From assembly GCF_014647155.1 (NCBI RefSeq), contig NZ_BMOQ01000008.1, positions 1-64,000 on the forward strand: 64,000 nt of DNA. Direction: 5' to 3'. Both the position numbers and the translations under genes were made by a program. The stretch is from Halarchaeum nitratireducens (GTDB taxonomy: Archaea; Halobacteriota; Halobacteria; Halobacteriales; Halobacteriaceae). The stretch's first letter is position 1; each line of letters starts with the position of its first letter. Positions 3,441 through 39,621 of this stretch are shown one piece after another. Under the pieces are notes generated by a model that was not told where the DNA came from, made no database searches, and was given only the letters and a program-made list of their open reading frames with translations.

Positions 3441-3448
3441 ACGGGTTA

Positions 3449-29026: not shown

Positions 29027-30298
29027 ATGGACAACACGCTACGACGTACGGTACGAATCAAACTCGACGTACCCAGAGAACGTCGTGGCGATCTCCATCA
29101 GACCAAGACTCAATTCCCCCACTGCGCTAACCGAACGAGCGAGTGGGCGTGGCGGTACGACGACGACTGTATCACCAGCAAGAGCAGGGCCGAAGAGGCC
29201 CTGTATGACGAGTTACAGGAGGAAACCGAGCTCACCGCTAACCTCGTTCAGAAAGGTATTCGTCGCGCTATCACAGCCGTCAGGGCCGGCGTCGAGAAAT
29301 TGACGCAGGGCAAGAAGACCAGCCAACCAAAGTTCGACTCGTGGAGCATCGTGTACGACAAACGCTCCGCGACGTTCAACGACGACCACGCTACCCTCTC
29401 GACGCCGAACGGAAGAGTCACCGCCGAATACGTTCTCCCACCTGAAAATCAGCGAGAGAACACGCCGTTCGGACGGTACTACGAGAGTGACAACTGGAAT
29501 ACGTCAAGTGCCACGCTCCAATATGACGAGAACGAGGACACGTTCTACCTGCACGTTACGCTGAAAAATCCCGATTATGGGAGTGACGGACCGGAACGCC
29601 AAGAAAGCGAGTCATGTGATGATCTCCCCGAGAACGGAGTGGTTCTCGGCGTGGACTTGAACGTGACTGGCGCGTTCGTCGTCACCTCCACAGGCGAGTT
29701 CATTGGCAGTGCAGACTTCCTCACCCACAAACGCGACCAATACGAGCAACGCCGCGGCTGCCTACAACAGACGGATACTCGATCGGCCCACCTCACGATT
29801 CAATCTATTGGTAGTCAGTTCAGCGAGTGGTCATTAAACTGGCTCCACAACCGGGCCAACGACCTCATCGAGGAAGCCGGTGATGCGGATGTAGACGGGA
29901 TTATTTTCGAGAACCTCACTCACATCCGCGAGAACATTGCGAACGGGAGCAAGTTCCAGCAGTGGGCCTACGCAAAGTTCGTGGAACTCGTTGAGTACAA
30001 GGTTGAGTCCACTGGGTTGTTCGTAGACTTCGTGAACCCAGCGTACACGAGTCAACGTTGCTCATATTGTGGGTGTACCCACGATGATAATCGCGACGAC
30101 AAGCAGTTCGAGTGCCGGTCATGTGGGTATGAGGTGAACGCCGATTATAACGCGGCGAAGAATATTGCAAACCGATACTGCGGGTATATCCATCGCGGGC
30201 AGAAGTCTCGCGGTGGATGGGCCACCAGTCAACTGGCCCTCAAGTCAGGGACGCTGAACGTGAACGGCGAGTACACGCCTTCCGCCTTGCGCGGATAG
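29027..30298 (+). CDS. tnpB: TnpB RNA-guided nuclease, IS1341 type, intact
   Basis: 423 aa. RuvC-I VVLGVDLNVTGAFVVTS (Asp), RuvC-II GIIFENLTHIREN (Glu), zinc finger CSYCGCTHDDNRDDKQFECR with CxxC pairs, and Ruv[17 protein letters not shown] (Asp). All catalytic residues are present, unlike the two other TnpB loci here. No tnpA is present. TnpB cuts DNA at a TAM next to the guide carried by the omega RNA from its own 3' end. It sits inside a small plasmid gene. Confidence 0.9.
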   Translation: MDNTLRRTVRIKLDVPRERRGDLHQTKTQFPHCANRTSEWAWRYDDDCITSKSRAEEALYDELQEETELTANLVQKGIRRAITAVRAGVEKLTQGKKTSQPKFDSWSIVYDKRSATFNDDHATLSTPNGRVTAEYVLPPENQRENTPFGRYYESDNWNTSSATLQYDENEDTFYLHVTLKNPDYGSDGPERQESESCDDLPENGVVLGVDLNVTGAFVVTSTGEFIGSADFLTHKRDQYEQRRGCLQQTDTRSAHLTIQSIGSQFSEWSLNWLHNRANDLIEEAGDADVDGIIFENLTHIRENIANGSKFQQWAYAKFVELVEYKVESTGLFVDFVNPAYTSQRCSYCGCTHDDNRDDKQFECRSCGYEVNADYNAAKNIANRYCGYIHRGQKSRGGWATSQLALKSGTLNVNGEYTPSALRG

Positions 30299-32316: not shown

Positions 32317-32487
32317 ATGAGCCATCGGCGACCGCCGTGGGAGAAGCCAATCCCGAGGACGGCCGTCGGGTACTGTGTCAGCTGTACGGACGTGCCGGCG
32401 GACCCAGTCTACGCCGCACGCGGTGACCAGTACTGTGCCGCCTGCTACTTCGAGGAGGTGCTCGCGAACACGGCCGACGAGGGGTAG
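32317..32487 (+). CDS. Small four-Cys zinc-finger protein, 56 aa
   Basis: GYCVSCTDVPADPVYAARGD then QYCAACYFEEVLANTADEG: two CxxC knuckles about 16 residues apart, as in haloarchaeal small zinc-finger proteins. A decayed second copy lies at 36490. After the stop comes ACACCCCGTGTGCAAAGTG, also found after the decayed copy, then an inverted repeat. Confidence 0.6.
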   Translation: MSHRRPPWEKPIPRTAVGYCVSCTDVPADPVYAARGDQYCAACYFEEVLANTADEG

Positions 32488-32512
32488 ACACCCCGTGTGC
32501 AAAGTGAGGTTC

Positions 32513-32553
32513 TTAACCAACAGTAGCAGGGATGTAGGGAAGTTGTTGGTTAA
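32513..32553. repeat. 41-bp phased inverted repeat, copy c
   Basis: TTAACCAACA and TGTTGGTTAA, perfect arms, 21-nt centre, 25 nt after a stop. The next ATG (32626) is 72 nt further and carries the hairpin leader. Confidence 0.85.
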
Positions 32554-32579
32554 TCCGGGCGGCGAGACCGACGTCGTTT

Positions 32580-32700: not shown

Positions 32701-33047
32701 ACGGCCGTGCAGTCGTGCTGAATTTCACGGAGCTCACCGTCTCGATCTGGTCACCAACAATCTAAACGGCAAACAATGAAAACTTACGCAAGACGTGGTG
32801 ATAATGAATTTCCGTGATGAAGTAGGTAGATTGGTCAATATTGAAGAGCGCTGGGACAGTTTGGAGGCGTATTTTGGTCTTTATCTGTCAGAAGGGGGTT
32901 GCTGAATATAGAGGAGTAGTCAACAGCATTCTGTGTTTAGTTCGCTTCTCGGAAATTGAAATCCGTCGTTAAGTTGCTGTGCGTATGTAGCATAGACCCA
33001 TCACTGTACTACCAGAGACAACAAGGAATATTTGGAGTGCAAAATAC
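32701..33047. other. Low-GC intergenic, no gene seen
   Basis: Base composition drops sharply here, marking the left border of the 33-35.7 kb island. No intact frame. Confidence 0.4.
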
Positions 33048-33773
33048 ATGAGTTGTATGGACGACGACGTGAGCAAGGGCATGGAGACCGCGTATGATGA
33101 GATGAGTAGTTTTGTTGAACGTCAGATGGATGTCACAGAAAACCTAGACAAAGAACTGCTTACCTTAATGAAATACACTATTCTAATGATTGGTTCAATA
33201 TACCCTGTTTTCAATATTATAGTTGCTCCCAATAATCAGATGGCGTTCGTGCTATTTCAGCCATGGCTTTTGCTTTCGGTGGCAGTACTAATCTATTCAA
33301 CATGGTTCTCTGCTCAAGGCTACCGAAATGGCATCTATTATGGAGGGTTCGAAGATTCACCCTTCTTCAACTTTAAATCGGTCACAAATCAGACACCAAT
33401 AAAAGGATCATGGGATGTTGATGAGTATGAGATCAGGTTCCCTAGTGATGATGAATTCTATCTACGACTGTTAAACGACTACTCAGTCGGTATAGCACAT
33501 AATAATTGGGAAATTAACTTTAAGTCCCAACTCGTACACCATGTTTTCAAGCTCATTACGTTGGGTGTCGTGATCTTTGTTGTCGGTATCATCATGAGCC
33601 TCTTTCCGAATTCGGGATACATCGGTGGTATGAATATTAACACGGGAACATTTCTTGGGATTCTAGCGATTGTTCTCTATCAAATGCGTGATTCCTACTG
33701 CACATACAGAGAATTTAACAACAGACAGAAAATTGAAGAACGTCTAACAATAAAGGACTTCAGTGAATCCTAA
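33048..33773 (+). CDS. Four-helix membrane protein of the methyltransferase/ATP-grasp locus
   Basis: 241 aa, AT-rich codons. Two hairpins of helices, TLMKYTILMIGSIYPVFNII plus PWLLLSVAVLIYSTWFS, and LITLGVVIFVVGIIMSLF plus GTFLGILAIVLYQM, flank a 100-residue loop. The N-terminus is a helix with VERQMDVTENLDKELL. No known family. One base pair separates its stop from the methyltransferase start (33775), so they are coexpressed. Confidence 0.6.
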   Translation: MSCMDDDVSKGMETAYDEMSSFVERQMDVTENLDKELLTLMKYTILMIGSIYPVFNIIVAPNNQMAFVLFQPWLLLSVAVLIYSTWFSAQGYRNGIYYGGFEDSPFFNFKSVTNQTPIKGSWDVDEYEIRFPSDDEFYLRLLNDYSVGIAHNNWEINFKSQLVHHVFKLITLGVVIFVVGIIMSLFPNSGYIGGMNINTGTFLGILAIVLYQMRDSYCTYREFNNRQKIEERLTIKDFSES

Positions 33774-33774
33774 T

Positions 33775-34473
33775 ATGGCGAACCTAGAAATATTAGACTT
33801 GAAATCAGTATTTGAACGGTGGGCCTTGGAAGGCCTAGAGCAAGAAATGGCAAGTGTACATCGGCGCACTGCAAACGATGTACTTTCTCGGATTCCCCTT
33901 TCACCCGGCGATCGAATTCTTGATGTCGGAACCGGGAATGGGTTCGCTGCTAGAACGCTTGCCTCACAAGAACCTCATGCACAGGTCTATGGACTAGATC
34001 TCTCACCAAATATGGTGCGAAGCGCCAATTCACACGAGTCTGAATCCAGAATTGAATATATTATAGGTGAGATGCATTCGTATCCGTTTAAGGATAATAG
34101 TTTTGGTTATGTCTTCATGATGGATGTGATTGAGTATAGTCCTGATCCAGAACAAGCGCTCCGGGAGATTCATCGTGTGCTCAGGCCAGAGGGACAACTA
34201 TACTGTGCTAATCTTTTTTATAAAGAGGTGGTTAATATCCAACCCGAACTCGCTGACCGGGATGGTATCCAACTCTGTTGGGGGAAAGACGAGTTTCGCA
34301 AAGCGTTTCGAACCTCCGGCTTCACTTCAATTCAACAGACACATATTCCAGATACAGAAGTAACTATCCCGTCTGAAGAGTCTTGTAAACAGATGGGTTG
34401 GGACTCTCGTACCCAAGCAGAAACGGTCTATCGAGATCTTGGAGCACTATTGACAACTGGGGTTGTTGACTAA
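33775..34473 (+). CDS. Class I SAM-dependent methyltransferase
   Basis: 232 aa. Motif I ILDVGTGNGFAARTLA, motif II VYGLDLSPNMVRSA, post-I FMMDVIEYSPDPEQALREIH and RVLRPEGQLYCANLFYKEVV fit the Methyltransf_11 fold. It would methylate a small molecule, lipid or peptide. AT-rich, coupled with the membrane protein upstream. ATG 33775 is preferred over GTG 33763. Confidence 0.85.
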   Translation: MANLEILDLKSVFERWALEGLEQEMASVHRRTANDVLSRIPLSPGDRILDVGTGNGFAARTLASQEPHAQVYGLDLSPNMVRSANSHESESRIEYIIGEMHSYPFKDNSFGYVFMMDVIEYSPDPEQALREIHRVLRPEGQLYCANLFYKEVVNIQPELADRDGIQLCWGKDEFRKAFRTSGFTSIQQTHIPDTEVTIPSEESCKQMGWDSRTQAETVYRDLGALLTTGVVD

Positions 34474-34475
34474 AT

Positions 34476-34586
34476 CTATGGGATCTTCGGTACCATCTTG
34501 GTAATAGCCTTCTCCCGCTTGTCAGTGGCAGCTTCTGTAATCGCGGCCTCGACGTACAGAGGCTGATTGTCTGTGTCAGGCATCAT
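34476..34586 (-). CDS. Leaderless 36-aa peptide gene
   Basis: On the minus strand ATG 34586 opens MMPDTDNQPLYVEAAITEAA and ends KMVPKIP. A TATA box (TATTTATA, complement of 34611-34618) lies 25-32 nt upstream, the exact distance for a leaderless haloarchaeal transcript. It is wedged between the methyltransferase (convergent) and the ATP-grasp gene (divergent). It could be the precursor of a modified peptide, an antitoxin-like peptide, or simply a small protein. Confidence 0.45.
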   Translation of the reverse strand: MMPDTDNQPLYVEAAITEAATDKREKAITKMVPKIP

Positions 34587-34608
34587 TTGAGATATTATCA
34601 AGGCAGAA

Positions 34609-34619
34609 CTTATAAATAT
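34609..34619 (-). promoter_or_regulatory. TATA box of the 36-aa peptide gene
   Basis: Plus-strand CTTATAAATAT reads ATATTTATAAG on the minus strand, centred about 28 nt before ATG 34586. Confidence 0.55.
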
Positions 34620-34689
34620 TATGCCTAATTGATTAGTTGTTCAAAGGTGCTTAACCCAATTTTGGGGTCCTCAAACGCCAATAGTAATT

Positions 34690-35649
34690 ATGTTCCAATG
34701 GATAAATCTGCCCATGATCGCTCTCTTAGGAGCCAGCGATAGTCAAATTAACAGGCTAAAACAGTTCCTTCCGGAATCTATCTACATTCATATCAATACA
34801 GAGGCCTTTCCTGAATCTCCAAAGATCTCTATCACATCCAACGGTATTGAATATCAAAAATCTGATGATAAACTCACGGCGTATTATGTCGATGCATATC
34901 ATTCCAGTGTGAAACGACCGGTGAATAAGAAGAACGATACTGACATTGAAGTGAACCGCCAGTTCGTATTTGCAACCTCCGAAAAAGATTCATTTCTTCG
35001 AAGTCTCCTCAAAATTGAGAAGGAGCGCGGAAAATTAGTAATTAATGGCCCCGAGATCAAGAACTTCCATTACCTGAAGCCGTACCAGCTATTTAAGCTC
35101 CGACGCGCTGGCCTCCCACTTCCCGATTCTATTCATACAAATGATCCGGCAGCGGTCCACAAGCTGTTTAACCATCACGATGAACTCGTCTACAAACCGG
35201 TGGGAGGTCTTGGTCGTGCGGGATTACACAATTTGGAGGAATTCGAATCTCGAAAAAACACTCTGACACGTGCGCCAGTAACATTCCAAGAATTCTGTGA
35301 GGGTGAAAACCTTCGAGTGTACGTTTTAGATGGTGAAATAATTGGGTGCTACCGGATTCTAACTGAAGCTGATGTAGTGGACTACCGCGGATTTGAACAA
35401 GGTGTCGAATCTGTTTCAATATCCGATCGCCTCGCCCAAATTTCGATCAAGGCAACCGAGATATTAGGGATGCGATTTTCCGGAGTTGACCTCATCCAGA
35501 ACGACAACCGAACCGTGCTGTTAGAATGTAATTCTGGCCCTCACTTCGCTGGCATTGAAGCCCACTTAGATTCGAATGAGATCTCGCGAGCACTTGCTGG
35601 TTTCCTTCGTCGCTATCATAAACAGAGAGGCGAGACTGATTCAGACTGA
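34690..35649 (+). CDS. RimK-like ATP-grasp ligase
   Basis: 319 aa. Nucleotide-binding residues: DELVYKPVGGLGRAGLHN (Lys and glycine loop) and FQEFCEGENLRVYVLDGEII; metal site RFSGVDLIQNDNRTVLLECN SGP (Asp...ExN). This family joins a carboxylate to an amine, as in RimK, MvdD-type peptide ligases and small-molecule ligases. The start may be 34714 (MIALLGASDSQ). AT-rich codons match its two neighbours, so the locus was acquired together. Confidence 0.8.
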   Translation: MFQWINLPMIALLGASDSQINRLKQFLPESIYIHINTEAFPESPKISITSNGIEYQKSDDKLTAYYVDAYHSSVKRPVNKKNDTDIEVNRQFVFATSEKDSFLRSLLKIEKERGKLVINGPEIKNFHYLKPYQLFKLRRAGLPLPDSIHTNDPAAVHKLFNHHDELVYKPVGGLGRAGLHNLEEFESRKNTLTRAPVTFQEFCEGENLRVYVLDGEIIGCYRILTEADVVDYRGFEQGVESVSISDRLAQISIKATEILGMRFSGVDLIQNDNRTVLLECNSGPHFAGIEAHLDSNEISRALAGFLRRYHKQRGETDSD

Positions 35650-35659
35650 GGGGGCACTG

Positions 35660-36345
35660 TTCAGATTAGCTGATTTTGGTAGAAGGCTTGTGCGAGCAGC
35701 TATATTTCGACGGTTGTGGGATCGACGTGACGAACGCCGTCACCAGTACGGGGTCGTTCTGGACGGGCGACGAATTCGACCATTGGCGACGCGAGTACGA
35801 GAAACGCCGTGGATCACTCCAGTAGTGCGGGACGCGTTGGGCGCACGAGAACATCCAGTCTATCGGGCGGAAAGAAGACGGCCGGTTCAAACTGATGCTG
35901 CACCACATCAGCAACGAACTCGTGGCAGAGGCTCGTGAGAACGAGTGTACGGTTATCGCATTTGAGGACTTGACCAACATCCGTGAGCGAACCGGGGGTC
36001 GTGGGGGCATAAGTGGGCGTTCAAACGGGTGTACGACTACGTCGAGTACAAGGCGGAAGCACACGGTATCAGTGTGGAGCAGGTTGATCCTGAGAACACG
36101 AGTCGGCAGTGCTCACACTGTGGGGTCACGCATCCAGACAATCGCGAGGATGAGTATTTCAAGTGTCTGAAATGCGGGTGCGAAAATCACGCGGATTACA
36201 ACGCCGCGAAGAACATCGGGTTACAGTATCTCCGTCGCAACCAAACCGGGGGCGACGGAGGCGCACCCATGGGCGTGCGCTTGAACAGCGGAACAATGAA
36301 CGTGAACGGAGGCTATTCTCCTGCCTCACCTGAGGCCAGAACGGG
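35660..36345 (+). pseudogene. TnpB remnant (IS1341 type)
   Basis: N-terminal half missing. Pieces [20 protein letters not shown] and [20 protein letters not shown] (RuvC-II Glu) precede [40 protein letters not shown] and [14 protein letters not shown] (RuvC-III Asp) in shifting frames. The end [13 protein letters not shown] and the GGGAGTCCAC tail match those of the intact element at 29027. Dead. Confidence 0.75.
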
Positions 36346-36489
36346 AGTCCACGCTGAATCCGCCCCTCATCGCAATAGTCCCTCCCACGTTCGAACACCG
36401 CTTCCGTACTCCGATTCCGGATCGTCTTCTCGTCGACTTCCATGCCGCACCCTTCGACTTAGCGGGTGTATCTGATTTGGGTCTGGGAC

Positions 36490-36610
36490 AACCTGTGTTC
36501 GGTTACTGCATGGCTGTGAAGAGGTTCCGGCGGAGCAGGTCTACGCGAGGTGACTCTCGACGTGCTGATTGCTACTTCGAGGAGGTCCCGCGGGAGGGAG
36601 GAATGATGCC
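36490..36610 (+). pseudogene. Decayed copy of the small zinc-finger gene
   Basis: VFGYCMAVKRFRRSRSTRGD, ADCYFEEVPREGG, then ACACCCCGTGTGCAAAGTG, parallel to GYCVSC...CYFEEV and the trailer of the gene at 32317. Frameshifted; one Cys pair lost. Confidence 0.5.
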
Positions 36611-36698
36611 TATACACCCCGTGTGCAAAGTGTAAATCACCCCGTAATAACCGATTCAGACCTCGATACACGAGAATAGAGATGCGTTCATTGGCGTC

Positions 36699-36739
36699 TT
36701 AACCAACAGTGGCAAGTGAATCAGGTGAATGTTGGTTAA
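36699..36739. repeat. 41-bp phased inverted repeat, copy d
   Basis: TTAACCAACA and TGTTGGTTAA, perfect arms, 21-nt centre; the centre also aligns with that of copy c. The next ATG (36813) is 73 nt after it. Confidence 0.85.
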
Positions 36740-36764
36740 ACTGGTCGAACCGCGACCGCGGAAG

Positions 36765-37365: not shown

Positions 37366-37896
37366 ATGCCAGACCCCGCCCCAACGTTCGAGGACGTGAA
37401 CGAGCGTGCCAAAGAGGACTGGAAACGTGATACCACGCCATTCGACCGCGTGCAGTCCGTGATACGCACGGCGTACGAGCCCATGAGCGCGGCGACCGTC
37501 GCCGAGAACGCCCTCACGTCGGAGCAGACAGCCCGCAAGCACCTCCGCTCGCTGGTCGACCACGGCTACGTGGCAGAGACCGCGTCCCCGGAGTCGAAGG
37601 GCACGCTCTATCAGCGAGCCAACGACTCGCTCGCCCTCGAGCAGGCACGGCGGATCCTCAACGAGACGGACACCGAGACGCTCTCGACGCGCGTCCTAGA
37701 AATGCGCGAGGAGCTTCGAGAGTACGCCGACCGATTCGGCGCAAACTCACCCGACGAAGCCGTTCGAGCCCACACGGATATCGACACTGAGACGCTCCTG
37801 GAGTGGCGAACGACGCGGCGGAACCTCGCCTTCGCCGAAGTCGCGCTCGCCCTCAGTGGGGTCGACGACGCCACTGGGGCCGCAAAAGCACTCTAA
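37366..37896 (+). CDS. Winged-helix protein, module partner A2
   Basis: 176 aa. SVIRTAYEPMSAATVAENAL, SEQTARKHLRSLVDHGYVAE, KGTLYQRANDSLALEQARRI give the wHTH and wing. The long helix ETLSTRVLEMREELREYADR and EWRTTRRNLAFAEVALALSG end it. This is the same architecture as 20704 and 26986. TAATG overlap with the His-rich partner shows translational coupling; the upstream palindrome suggests self-repression. Confidence 0.65.
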   Translation: MPDPAPTFEDVNERAKEDWKRDTTPFDRVQSVIRTAYEPMSAATVAENALTSEQTARKHLRSLVDHGYVAETASPESKGTLYQRANDSLALEQARRILNETDTETLSTRVLEMREELREYADRFGANSPDEAVRAHTDIDTETLLEWRTTRRNLAFAEVALALSGVDDATGAAKAL

Positions 37897-38372
37897 TGGC
37901 CGACAACGACGGAATCCGGGATTCACACACGCTTCGAGGCGCTATCGACGTGACGAAGCTCGATGCGTTCCGAGACGCGTTCGTTGCCATCGAGCCTGCG
38001 GCGTCGGGCGAAATCGATGACCGGCTCGATCCCCGAGAGCTCCGGCTCACGATACCGTACGGCGTCGCCGAGGCAGAGAAAACCAGATTCACAGTTCGAT
38101 GGACGACGGTGGACGACTACAACGTCCACTACTCAGATACGTCCGAACGAAACCTCCGGTGGGATCTTCACCCTCACGACTTCCCAGCACCGCCCGACGA
38201 ACGACACTTCCACCCACCGCCGGATGCGTCGAGTACGGATACCGACGTCGAGGCGTCATGCCTCGGAGATCCCTCAGTTGATCTTGTTGCCCGGGCAGTT
38301 CACCTCTTGTGGCGACAGGCACTCGGCGAGGCGTCGATGACCAACATCAACGCCGGAACGAACCAGACTTAA
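37896..38372 (+). CDS. His-rich partner protein B2, 158 aa
   Basis: The core KTRFTVRWTTVDDYNVHYSD, RNLRWDLHPHDFPAPPDE and RHFHPPPDASSTD parallels B1 at 21276 (VVWFENETFSIHYHES, RWDRHP, IHPGPDA). Both are coupled to a paralogous wHTH gene and end in a helix with LARAVHLLW or STVLNEIED. Probably the effector of a two-gene module. Confidence 0.5.
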   Translation: MADNDGIRDSHTLRGAIDVTKLDAFRDAFVAIEPAASGEIDDRLDPRELRLTIPYGVAEAEKTRFTVRWTTVDDYNVHYSDTSERNLRWDLHPHDFPAPPDERHFHPPPDASSTDTDVEASCLGDPSVDLVARAVHLLWRQALGEASMTNINAGTNQT

Positions 38373-38482
38373 CCGTACTCAGTACAGGATGTCGTCCATC
38401 TATCTCGAGTTCAGCCCGTGTCCAGTGACTCAGCGGTACGAAAATCGGCCTGATTGCCGAGGTGGTTTATCGTCGCCGCTGA

Positions 38483-38713
38483 GTGGCGAGGCGACTGATC
38501 GTGACCGAGCACGCCGAACCTACCGAGTCGAGCGAACTTACTCCTGAACAACGTCTCTCGCCGACGAACACCCACGTACTCAGAGCGAGTATCGTGACGA
38601 TCGACGACACGGAGACGCTTCGGGAGTGCGTCGCCTACGAGAATACACACCAGAATCGTGAACCGGTGCTTCGCTGGATCTCACAGCAGGCGGCGGAACT
38701 TCGATCGAAATGA
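38483..38713 (+). CDS. Hypothetical protein, 76 aa
   Basis: HVLRASIVTIDDTETLRECV, AYENTHQNREPVLRWISQQA is a conserved-looking core (VDDxETLxxYVxYENxHQNR). The start at 38483 may be GTG. It overlaps the beginning of the next open frame by a TGAATG. Function unknown. Confidence 0.5.
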   Translation: MARRLIVTEHAEPTESSELTPEQRLSPTNTHVLRASIVTIDDTETLRECVAYENTHQNREPVLRWISQQAAELRSK

Positions 38714-38811
38714 ATGAACGTCGTTGGAGGATACATGCGTCGAAATCGGGAGGGGGGACCTCCGAATTTATACGGATGGCTCGCCAAGGGAGCGTACGGA
38801 GTGTTCACGAT

Positions 38812-39102
38812 ATGATCGACGTTGAAGACAACATTGAACTCCTCCAGCAGTCGGGGCGATTTTCCTCCGAGGAGGAGTTCCTCGAGGAAGCGTTCCGCGC
38901 CCTTCTGGAGAAGCGCCCTGAGCTACGCGTCGATCTCGCCGTCGAGCAGTACAAAACCGGAAGCGTATCGCTCAACCGCGCTGCCGAGCTCGCCGGCTAC
39001 AGTCCAGAAGAATTCAAAGAGATTCTCCGCGACCGCGGCGTTAGCCGCGATATCGCAATTCTTAGCGATGAGGAGCGGTCCGCCCGCCTCGAAAACCTCT
39101 AG
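38812..39102 (+). CDS. UPF0175-family antitoxin
   Basis: 96 aa. NIELLQQSGRFSSEEEFLEE, AFRALLEKRPELRVDLAVEQ, YKTGSVSLNRAAELAGYSPE, EFKEILRDRGV is a complete UPF0175 domain. The TATA-like TTTATACG at 38766 points to a start at 38776 or later; ATG 38812 begins where the family begins. The PIN toxin follows after 12 nt. Confidence 0.8.
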   Translation: MIDVEDNIELLQQSGRFSSEEEFLEEAFRALLEKRPELRVDLAVEQYKTGSVSLNRAAELAGYSPEEFKEILRDRGVSRDIAILSDEERSARLENL

Positions 39103-39114
39103 CGGGGAGGGAGT

Positions 39115-39621
39115 GTGCTCGTCGACAACAATATCTTGAGTCCGCTCGCGAAAATCGAGCGGCTTGAGCTCCTGCCTGCGCTTTTCGATCAGGTCGGGAC
39201 GGTTCCCTCTGTTCTGGATGAACTCCATCGCGACGAAGTAGCCGGCTACCAGTTCGTCGAGCGGATAGATGCGGTCAAATCCTATCGTGGCGGCTGGTTG
39301 CAGGTATACTCGCCAACAGAGTCTGAGGTTCAGCTCGCCGACGACATCATCAATGCATCGCTTTCGTTCACTGATGCGGAGTGCGTTGCCGTCGCAGCAG
39401 CTCGCGATGAGCGACTGCTGACCGACGACGGCCATGCTGCCGAGATGGCGTCCCAGCGAGATGTCGAAGTCTGGGACCTAAAGCTGTTACTTGAGGCAGC
39501 CCTTGTCAAAGGACACATCGAGACCGAGAGCGAACTCGAAACCGTAATCGATGCACTTCGAGAACGGGACGGATATCGGTTCTCCAACCAAGACCGGACC
39601 GACCTATTCGACCACCTCTGA
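39115..39621 (+). CDS. PIN-domain (DUF3368-like) toxin
   Basis: GTG 39115. MLVDNNILSPLAKIERLELL (Asp), VPSVLDELHRDEVAGY (Glu), SLSFTDAECVAVAAARDERL (Asp/Glu) and LLTDDGHAAEMA (Asp) are PIN acidic residues. UPF0175-PIN pairs are known toxin-antitoxin modules in archaea, where the PIN protein cleaves RNA. Confidence 0.75.
   Translation: MLVDNNILSPLAKIERLELLPALFDQVGTVPSVLDELHRDEVAGYQFVERIDAVKSYRGGWLQVYSPTESEVQLADDIINASLSFTDAECVAVAAARDERLLTDDGHAAEMASQRDVEVWDLKLLLEAALVKGHIETESELETVIDALRERDGYRFSNQDRTDLFDHL

Follow-up and report, generated by a model that had tools for sequence, protein, structure and literature searches.

The contig NZ_BMOQ01000008.1 of the haloarchaeon Halarchaeum nitratireducens (assembly GCF_014647155.1) carries an island of low GC content in which genes for a membrane protein, a methyltransferase and an ATP-grasp ligase are accompanied by a 36-codon open reading frame (ORF) on the opposite strand (Table 1). 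The question raised by this locus is whether its enzymes modify a short ribosomal peptide, as proposed in a first-pass annotation of the DNA sequence, and whether the 36-aa product is that peptide. The stretch of DNA analyzed here, referred to as the window, comprises the first 64,000 nucleotides of the contig.

Table 1. Coordinates of the features in and around the island
Feature	Coordinates	Strand	Remarks
Left copy of the repeat block bounding the island	32435..32562	+	Gene 3' end and TTAACCAACA...TGTTGGTTAA palindrome
33-aa ORF MNFRDEVGRLVNIEERWDSLEAYFGLYLSEGGC, weaker precursor candidate	32804..32905	+	Precedes the membrane protein gene; contains IEER
Four-helix membrane protein gene	33048..33773	+	241 aa; four hydrophobic segments; no Pfam family
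Class I SAM methyltransferase gene	33775..34473	+	232 aa; Methyltransf_11, E 1e-26
36-aa ORF MMPDTDNQPLYVEAAITEAATDKREKAITKMVPKIP, candidate precursor	34476..34586	-	Short; on the opposite strand, ahead of the ATP-grasp gene
TATA-like box TTTATAA	34610..34616	-	Begins 30 nt ahead of the start codon of the 36-aa ORF
PsnB-like ATP-grasp ligase, predicted graspetide-synthetase type	34714..35649	+	311 aa; may start earlier, at 34690
Right copy of the repeat block	36562..36745	+	Matches the left block

Layout and surroundings of the island

All the annotated ORFs were present in their places, and the low GC content was borne out, with 43% at positions 32760-35650 versus 62% and 59% in the flanks. 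The 36-aa ORF, at 52% GC, lies above all three large genes that had been described as AT-rich. The island is bounded by two diverged copies of a repeat block, each comprising the 3' end of a small Cys-rich gene and the TTAACCAACA...TGTTGGTTAA palindrome; the left part of this block has two further copies in the genome. A TTCTTAACCAACA-like motif, possibly an operator or a recombination site, is found four times in the window (at positions 3446, 28565, 32510, and 36696) with at most one mismatch, compared with 0.02 expected occurrences. A full-length TnpB-like gene (29027-30298) is located to the left of the island, and a TnpB-like C-terminal fragment (Cas12f1-like_TNB) to the right of it, at 36029-36475. 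In the segment from 37366 to 39621, there are a winged-helix gene of the DUF7342 family and, ahead of a putative PIN-like gene, a UPF0175 gene, possibly a toxin-antitoxin pair.

A phage or virus origin of the island was considered and discarded, as viral relatives were absent for the ATP-grasp enzyme, the methyltransferase and the membrane protein. The same applies to a defence system, for which PADLOC returned just a generic methyltransferase match. A scan for bacterial-type promoters gave a chance-level result.

Family identity of the ATP-grasp enzyme

Alignment with its relatives points to the ATG at 34714 as the likelier start of the ATP-grasp gene, because the resulting MIALLGAS lines up with the N termini of those proteins. 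Pfam and NCBIfam place the product in the RimK-type ATP-grasp class. It falls below all NCBIfam equivalog cut-offs and far under those of MptN, rimK, and TIGR04187 ("ATP-grasp ribosomal peptide maturase"), the last with 55.7 bits versus a cut-off of 350; MptN and rimK score higher than the ribosomal-peptide maturase model.

Comparison with solved proteins gave a different and decisive ranking. A phmmer search with the window enzyme alone retrieved PsnB (7drm) with 123 bits (E 8e-35), followed by ArgX with 35 bits (E 6e-8) and RimK with 22-26 bits. The profile of the ATP-grasp family likewise matched PsnB best (E 9e-76), then PruB, MdnB, MdnC, and CdnC, with RimK after those. In a Foldseek search with an AlphaFold2 model of the enzyme (pLDDT 85), the 15 best matches were all PsnB (E 2e-24 to 8e-21), which came before MdnB/MdnC and RimK. 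In the phylogenetic tree, the window enzyme groups with PsnB (87/85), and the RimK-like haloarchaeal outgroup is set apart from the rest (87/85); the branch of the window enzyme measures 1.3 changes per site, and its exact position is unsure because the branches are long. Every residue invariant in the family is present, including R201, D259, E271, and N273.

Clustering with RimK, LysX, or MptN was thus found neither by direct comparison nor in the fold or the tree. The assignment to the graspetide-synthetase lineage, and not to generic RimK/LysX ligases, is well supported by sequence, modeled fold and tree, and the enzyme would be expected to act as a macrocyclase. Of the earlier description as a RimK-like ATP-grasp ligase, the ATP-grasp part stands, and the generic RimK part gives way to PsnB as the best match by sequence and fold.

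Haloarchaeal relatives and their peptide genes

Relatives of the enzyme were sought in 392 genomes of the order with a family cut-off of E ≤ 1e-14. Members of the family were detected in 20 genomes, the window's own included; they are 30-39% identical to the window enzyme, at E 1e-38 and weaker. In 18 of these 20 genomes, the ATP-grasp gene is adjoined by a gene for a peptide of 28-49 aa. Inspection of the small ORFs revealed a leader motif common to these peptides, H[FY][IV]E..L...EER.N. A precursor profile made from 14 peptides recovered 8 more, outside the seed set, and a precursor-like gene is present in 22 of the 23 haloarchaeal relatives' loci, lying on the strand opposite to the ATP-grasp gene in 20 of the 22 (binomial p 6e-5). 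Genome-wide, the completed profile had matches in 18 of the 20 genomes with the enzyme, and the remaining 372 gave none (Fisher 4e-29). This association is in part circular, as the same loci had supplied the profile; its informative half is the absence from the 372 genomes.

Eighteen loci also encode an ∼300-aa partner protein, mostly overlapping the ATP-grasp gene by a few bases. Its HExxH motif is invariant and its Pfam M50 match is weak; it clearly matches the intramembrane metalloprotease of daptides (daptide_HExxH, E 1e-19) and LiaK, the epipeptide protease, and is most like such maturation proteases. Loci combining an EER-leader peptide with this M50 protein occur in 18 genomes besides the window's own and that of the L119 locus (G033), the sole relative with neither a precursor nor an M50 partner detected. 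The graspetide-like loci span at least four families of Halobacteriales.

Plesiocin has the core motif TTxxxxEE. Three of the haloarchaeal peptides (in loci L103, L111, and L105) contain a similar TTLAVGEE or TTMAMGEE, and four further ones contain TT[LM]ATGEC. A search with the relatives' precursors among solved structures gave no match. Many of the peptide genes are unannotated, for example in the plasmid loci of Halocatena salina (L128) and Halorussus salilacus (L129). Three loci (L117, L120, and L122) have a tandem pair of ATP-grasp genes, recalling the microviridin MdnB/MdnC pair, with one precursor and one protease on the other strand.

Taken together, the haloarchaeal relatives look like a coherent graspetide-like group. 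The placement of the window enzyme in a RiPP pathway is well supported by these data: PsnB is its best solved relative, and next to its haloarchaeal relatives there are conserved peptide genes and proteases of the RiPP type. The check for a small ORF conserved beside homologous ATP-grasp genes gave a split result: there is one, mostly in the opposite orientation, but it belongs to a sequence family different from the 36-aa one. As a set, the four genes of the window are not conserved in other haloarchaea. No second occurrence of the set and no close relative of the locus were found in the genomes searched; tblastn detected neither the membrane protein nor the 36-aa peptide beside the relatives' ATP-grasp genes, and the methyltransferase was likewise absent there, with one weak match in L107 (28% identity, E 1e-7). 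The island is most likely a horizontally acquired, orphan locus of the graspetide type.

Candidate precursors

The 36-aa ORF lies 127 bp upstream of the ATP-grasp start, and its geometry (small, opposite strand, upstream) is shared with several of the relatives' precursors. The arrangement TTTATAA-N17..24-ATG has a single occurrence in the window, before this ORF, with 0.09 expected by shuffling. The TATA box claimed at a leaderless distance is there, 30 nt before the ATG, but its direction is uncertain: the element is nearly self-complementary and might just as well belong to the promoter of the oppositely oriented ATP-grasp gene. The coding signal is mild (GC3 0.65, codon-usage p 0.022), and 19% of dinucleotide shuffles of the intergenic stretch contain, by chance, an ATG-initiated minus-strand ORF of at least 36 codons.

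A search for conservation of the 36-aa peptide gave a negative result: no homologue was detected in the 392 genomes (best E 0.28) or among plasmids or phages. Against the precursor profile, it scored 0.4 bits, ranking 95 among the scored ORFs of the window, and its pairwise scores against the precursors were reached by 24% of its own shuffles (p 0.24). The residues T, K, D, and E are present without a known core pattern. The leader motif Phhx(1,2)h (Makarova, PMC8939145), which the 36-mer fits loosely via PLYVEA, was set aside as support; it is uninformative because 72 of the 413 window ORFs have it and hardly any of the relatives' precursors do (1 of 22).

The 33-aa ORF that precedes the membrane protein gene contains an attractive IEER, a tetrad typical of the leaders in the relatives' precursors. 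It was tried as the true precursor and set aside, with a score of -1.2 bits against the precursor profile and a shuffle p of 0.25, no better than chance. A TTxxxxEE-like or TxKxPxD core is absent from both island candidates. The ORFs of the window compared with the HF[IV]E..L...EER.N leader family scored at noise level, and a search for an EER-leader precursor elsewhere in the genome yielded no match at E 10. The M50 protease of the family is absent from the island, and the genome has just a weak generic M50 match (E 0.002). The 36-aa product is the likeliest substrate for the ATP-grasp enzyme within the island, a plausible, unproven precursor; that it is the actual substrate is a tentative assignment, rated well below even chances.

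Methyltransferase and membrane protein

The methyltransferase gene overlaps or abuts the membrane protein gene, a GTG at 33763 being a possible alternative start. Its product is 36-41% identical over the full length to a methyltransferase present in 341 of the 352 haloarchaeal genomes; the paralogue in the same genome (G000:C13:17796) is chromosomal. A RiPP-specific, PIMT-type enzyme was considered and dropped: the Pfam PCMT match (E 0.0016) lies under the cut-off, and the protein is a paralogue that goes back to duplication of a core enzyme of haloarchaea. UbiE-like methyltransferases have been noted in some graspetide loci (PMC8939145). By analogy, the enzyme might speculatively be cast as a peptide methylase.

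The four-helix description of the membrane protein was confirmed by four hydrophobic segments of 19 residues each. The protein is encoded in a single copy in the genome, and its relatives constitute a broad, weak, and divergent haloarchaeal family, in which L126:7877-8662 is the best match at 31% identity (E 2e-18 when searched across genomes and 2e-20 locally). The L120 ATP-grasp locus holds two small proteins that cluster with these relatives, which may be due to chance. A role in export or immunity is conceivable, again by analogy.

Proposed mechanism and alternative explanations

The locus as a whole is best explained as an acquired, orphan graspetide-type locus in which the 36-aa product is the likeliest island substrate and the other genes serve in tailoring or export, and this explanation is judged fairly probable. 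The ATP-grasp enzyme would phosphorylate a short ribosomal peptide on its Asp/Glu side chains; within the island, the likeliest such peptide is the one encoded just upstream on the opposite strand. The activated residues would be closed onto Thr/Ser/Lys side chains to form ester or amide rings, as in the case of PsnB. Methylation of the ring-bearing product by the methyltransferase may follow, and the membrane protein may act in its export or in protection of the cell. Points against this explanation are the missing precursor and protease of the family, the lack of significant leader similarity and of a TTxxxxEE-like core in the 36-aa ORF, the low TIGR04187 score, the single occurrence of the four-gene set, and the long branch of the enzyme, which may have changed its substrate. 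A bolder form of this explanation, viewed as unlikely, would make the locus a divergent lineage of archaeal graspetides. Its 36-residue peptide, with a leader unlike those described, would be cyclized by the PsnB-like enzyme and then methylated by a recruited core methyltransferase, and the four-helix membrane protein would be the exporter or immunity factor; the lineage would belong to a wider haloarchaeal graspetide group, characterized by EER-leader precursors on the opposite strand and a daptide-type protease.

Alternatively, the graspetide-type enzyme could act on another peptide, either the 33-aa product or a precursor encoded elsewhere, leaving the 36-aa ORF as a frame that is open by chance or as a small gene unconnected with the enzyme. 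The 33-aa ORF, with its IEER, is located at the head of the cluster on the same strand as the enzyme gene, and the chance frequency of ORFs as long as the 36-mer given above (19%) agrees with such a reading. However, the 36-mer is not outscored by the 33-aa ORF, the precursors of the relatives lie opposite the enzyme gene in 20 of 22 loci, and the known leader type was not found in the rest of the genome; this alternative appears rather doubtful. It is improbable that the enzyme has moved to a RimK-like role, attaching amino acids to a protein, a small molecule or a cofactor, with the methyltransferase and membrane protein belonging to a pathway that does not involve peptides, for instance one modifying lipids or the cell surface. 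Its long branch, the missing family partners, the MptN and rimK models that outscore the ribosomal-peptide maturase model, and the origin of the methyltransferase as a paralogue of a core enzyme would all suit that role, but PsnB is ahead of RimK/LysX by at least 88 bits, and ahead by fold as well. The island could also be the decaying, nonfunctional cargo remnant of a graspetide cluster from which the precursor and protease genes have disappeared, as its single occurrence, the absence of the family precursor, and the broken TnpB copy and repeat blocks at its flanks might suggest. The three reading frames are, however, intact, with codon-usage scores even along their length, and the ATP-grasp enzyme retains all the invariant residues; decay likewise has a low probability.

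Significance

The strongest result lies outside the window: it is the coherent haloarchaeal graspetide-like family, which renders the question testable. Graspetides are known mainly from bacteria. In the text of a 2026 survey, an archaeal graspetide group is listed just from Thermoprotea (PMC13097080), and the text of a large 2025 survey of archaeal RiPPs does not mention graspetides (PMC12144867). The haloarchaeal combination of a graspetide-type ligase, EER-leader precursors on the opposite strand and a daptide-type protease appears to be undescribed; no report uniting graspetides and haloarchaea was found in the article texts searched, and priority is uncertain. The haloarchaeal loci, whose hosts can be cultured and engineered, provide a collection of ring-forming peptides from archaea that is ready for testing. 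The window locus would enlarge it by a methyltransferase and a membrane protein, provided that its peptide is identified.

Comparison with known systems

The amino acid ligases RimK, LysX, ArgX, and MptN share the superfamily and the overall fold with the window ATP-grasp enzyme, but match it much more weakly than PsnB and form the outgroup in the tree (87/85). PsnB itself (group 2, plesiocin type; PDB 7drm-7drp) aligns with nearly the whole enzyme at about 28% identity and has the same ATP-grasp active-site signatures; PsnB systems, however, include a precursor with TTxxxxEE repeats and an NHLM-type transporter, both lacking in the window locus. In the actinobacterial graspimides, as in the window, an ATP-grasp gene (TIGR04187) adjoins a methyltransferase gene, and TIGR04187, the graspimide ATP-grasp model, is also the best NCBIfam model for the haloarchaeal relatives. 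The graspimide methyltransferase is, however, of the PIMT type (TIGR04188), whereas the one in the window is Methyltransf_11/UbiE-like. The haloarchaeal loci L103-L125 do not contain the methyltransferase and membrane protein of the window, which in turn lacks their M50 protease and a recognizable EER-leader precursor. Nevertheless, these loci encode the closest haloarchaeal ATP-grasp enzymes (up to 35-39% identity) and, as in the window, have a small opposite-strand ORF adjoining the enzyme gene.
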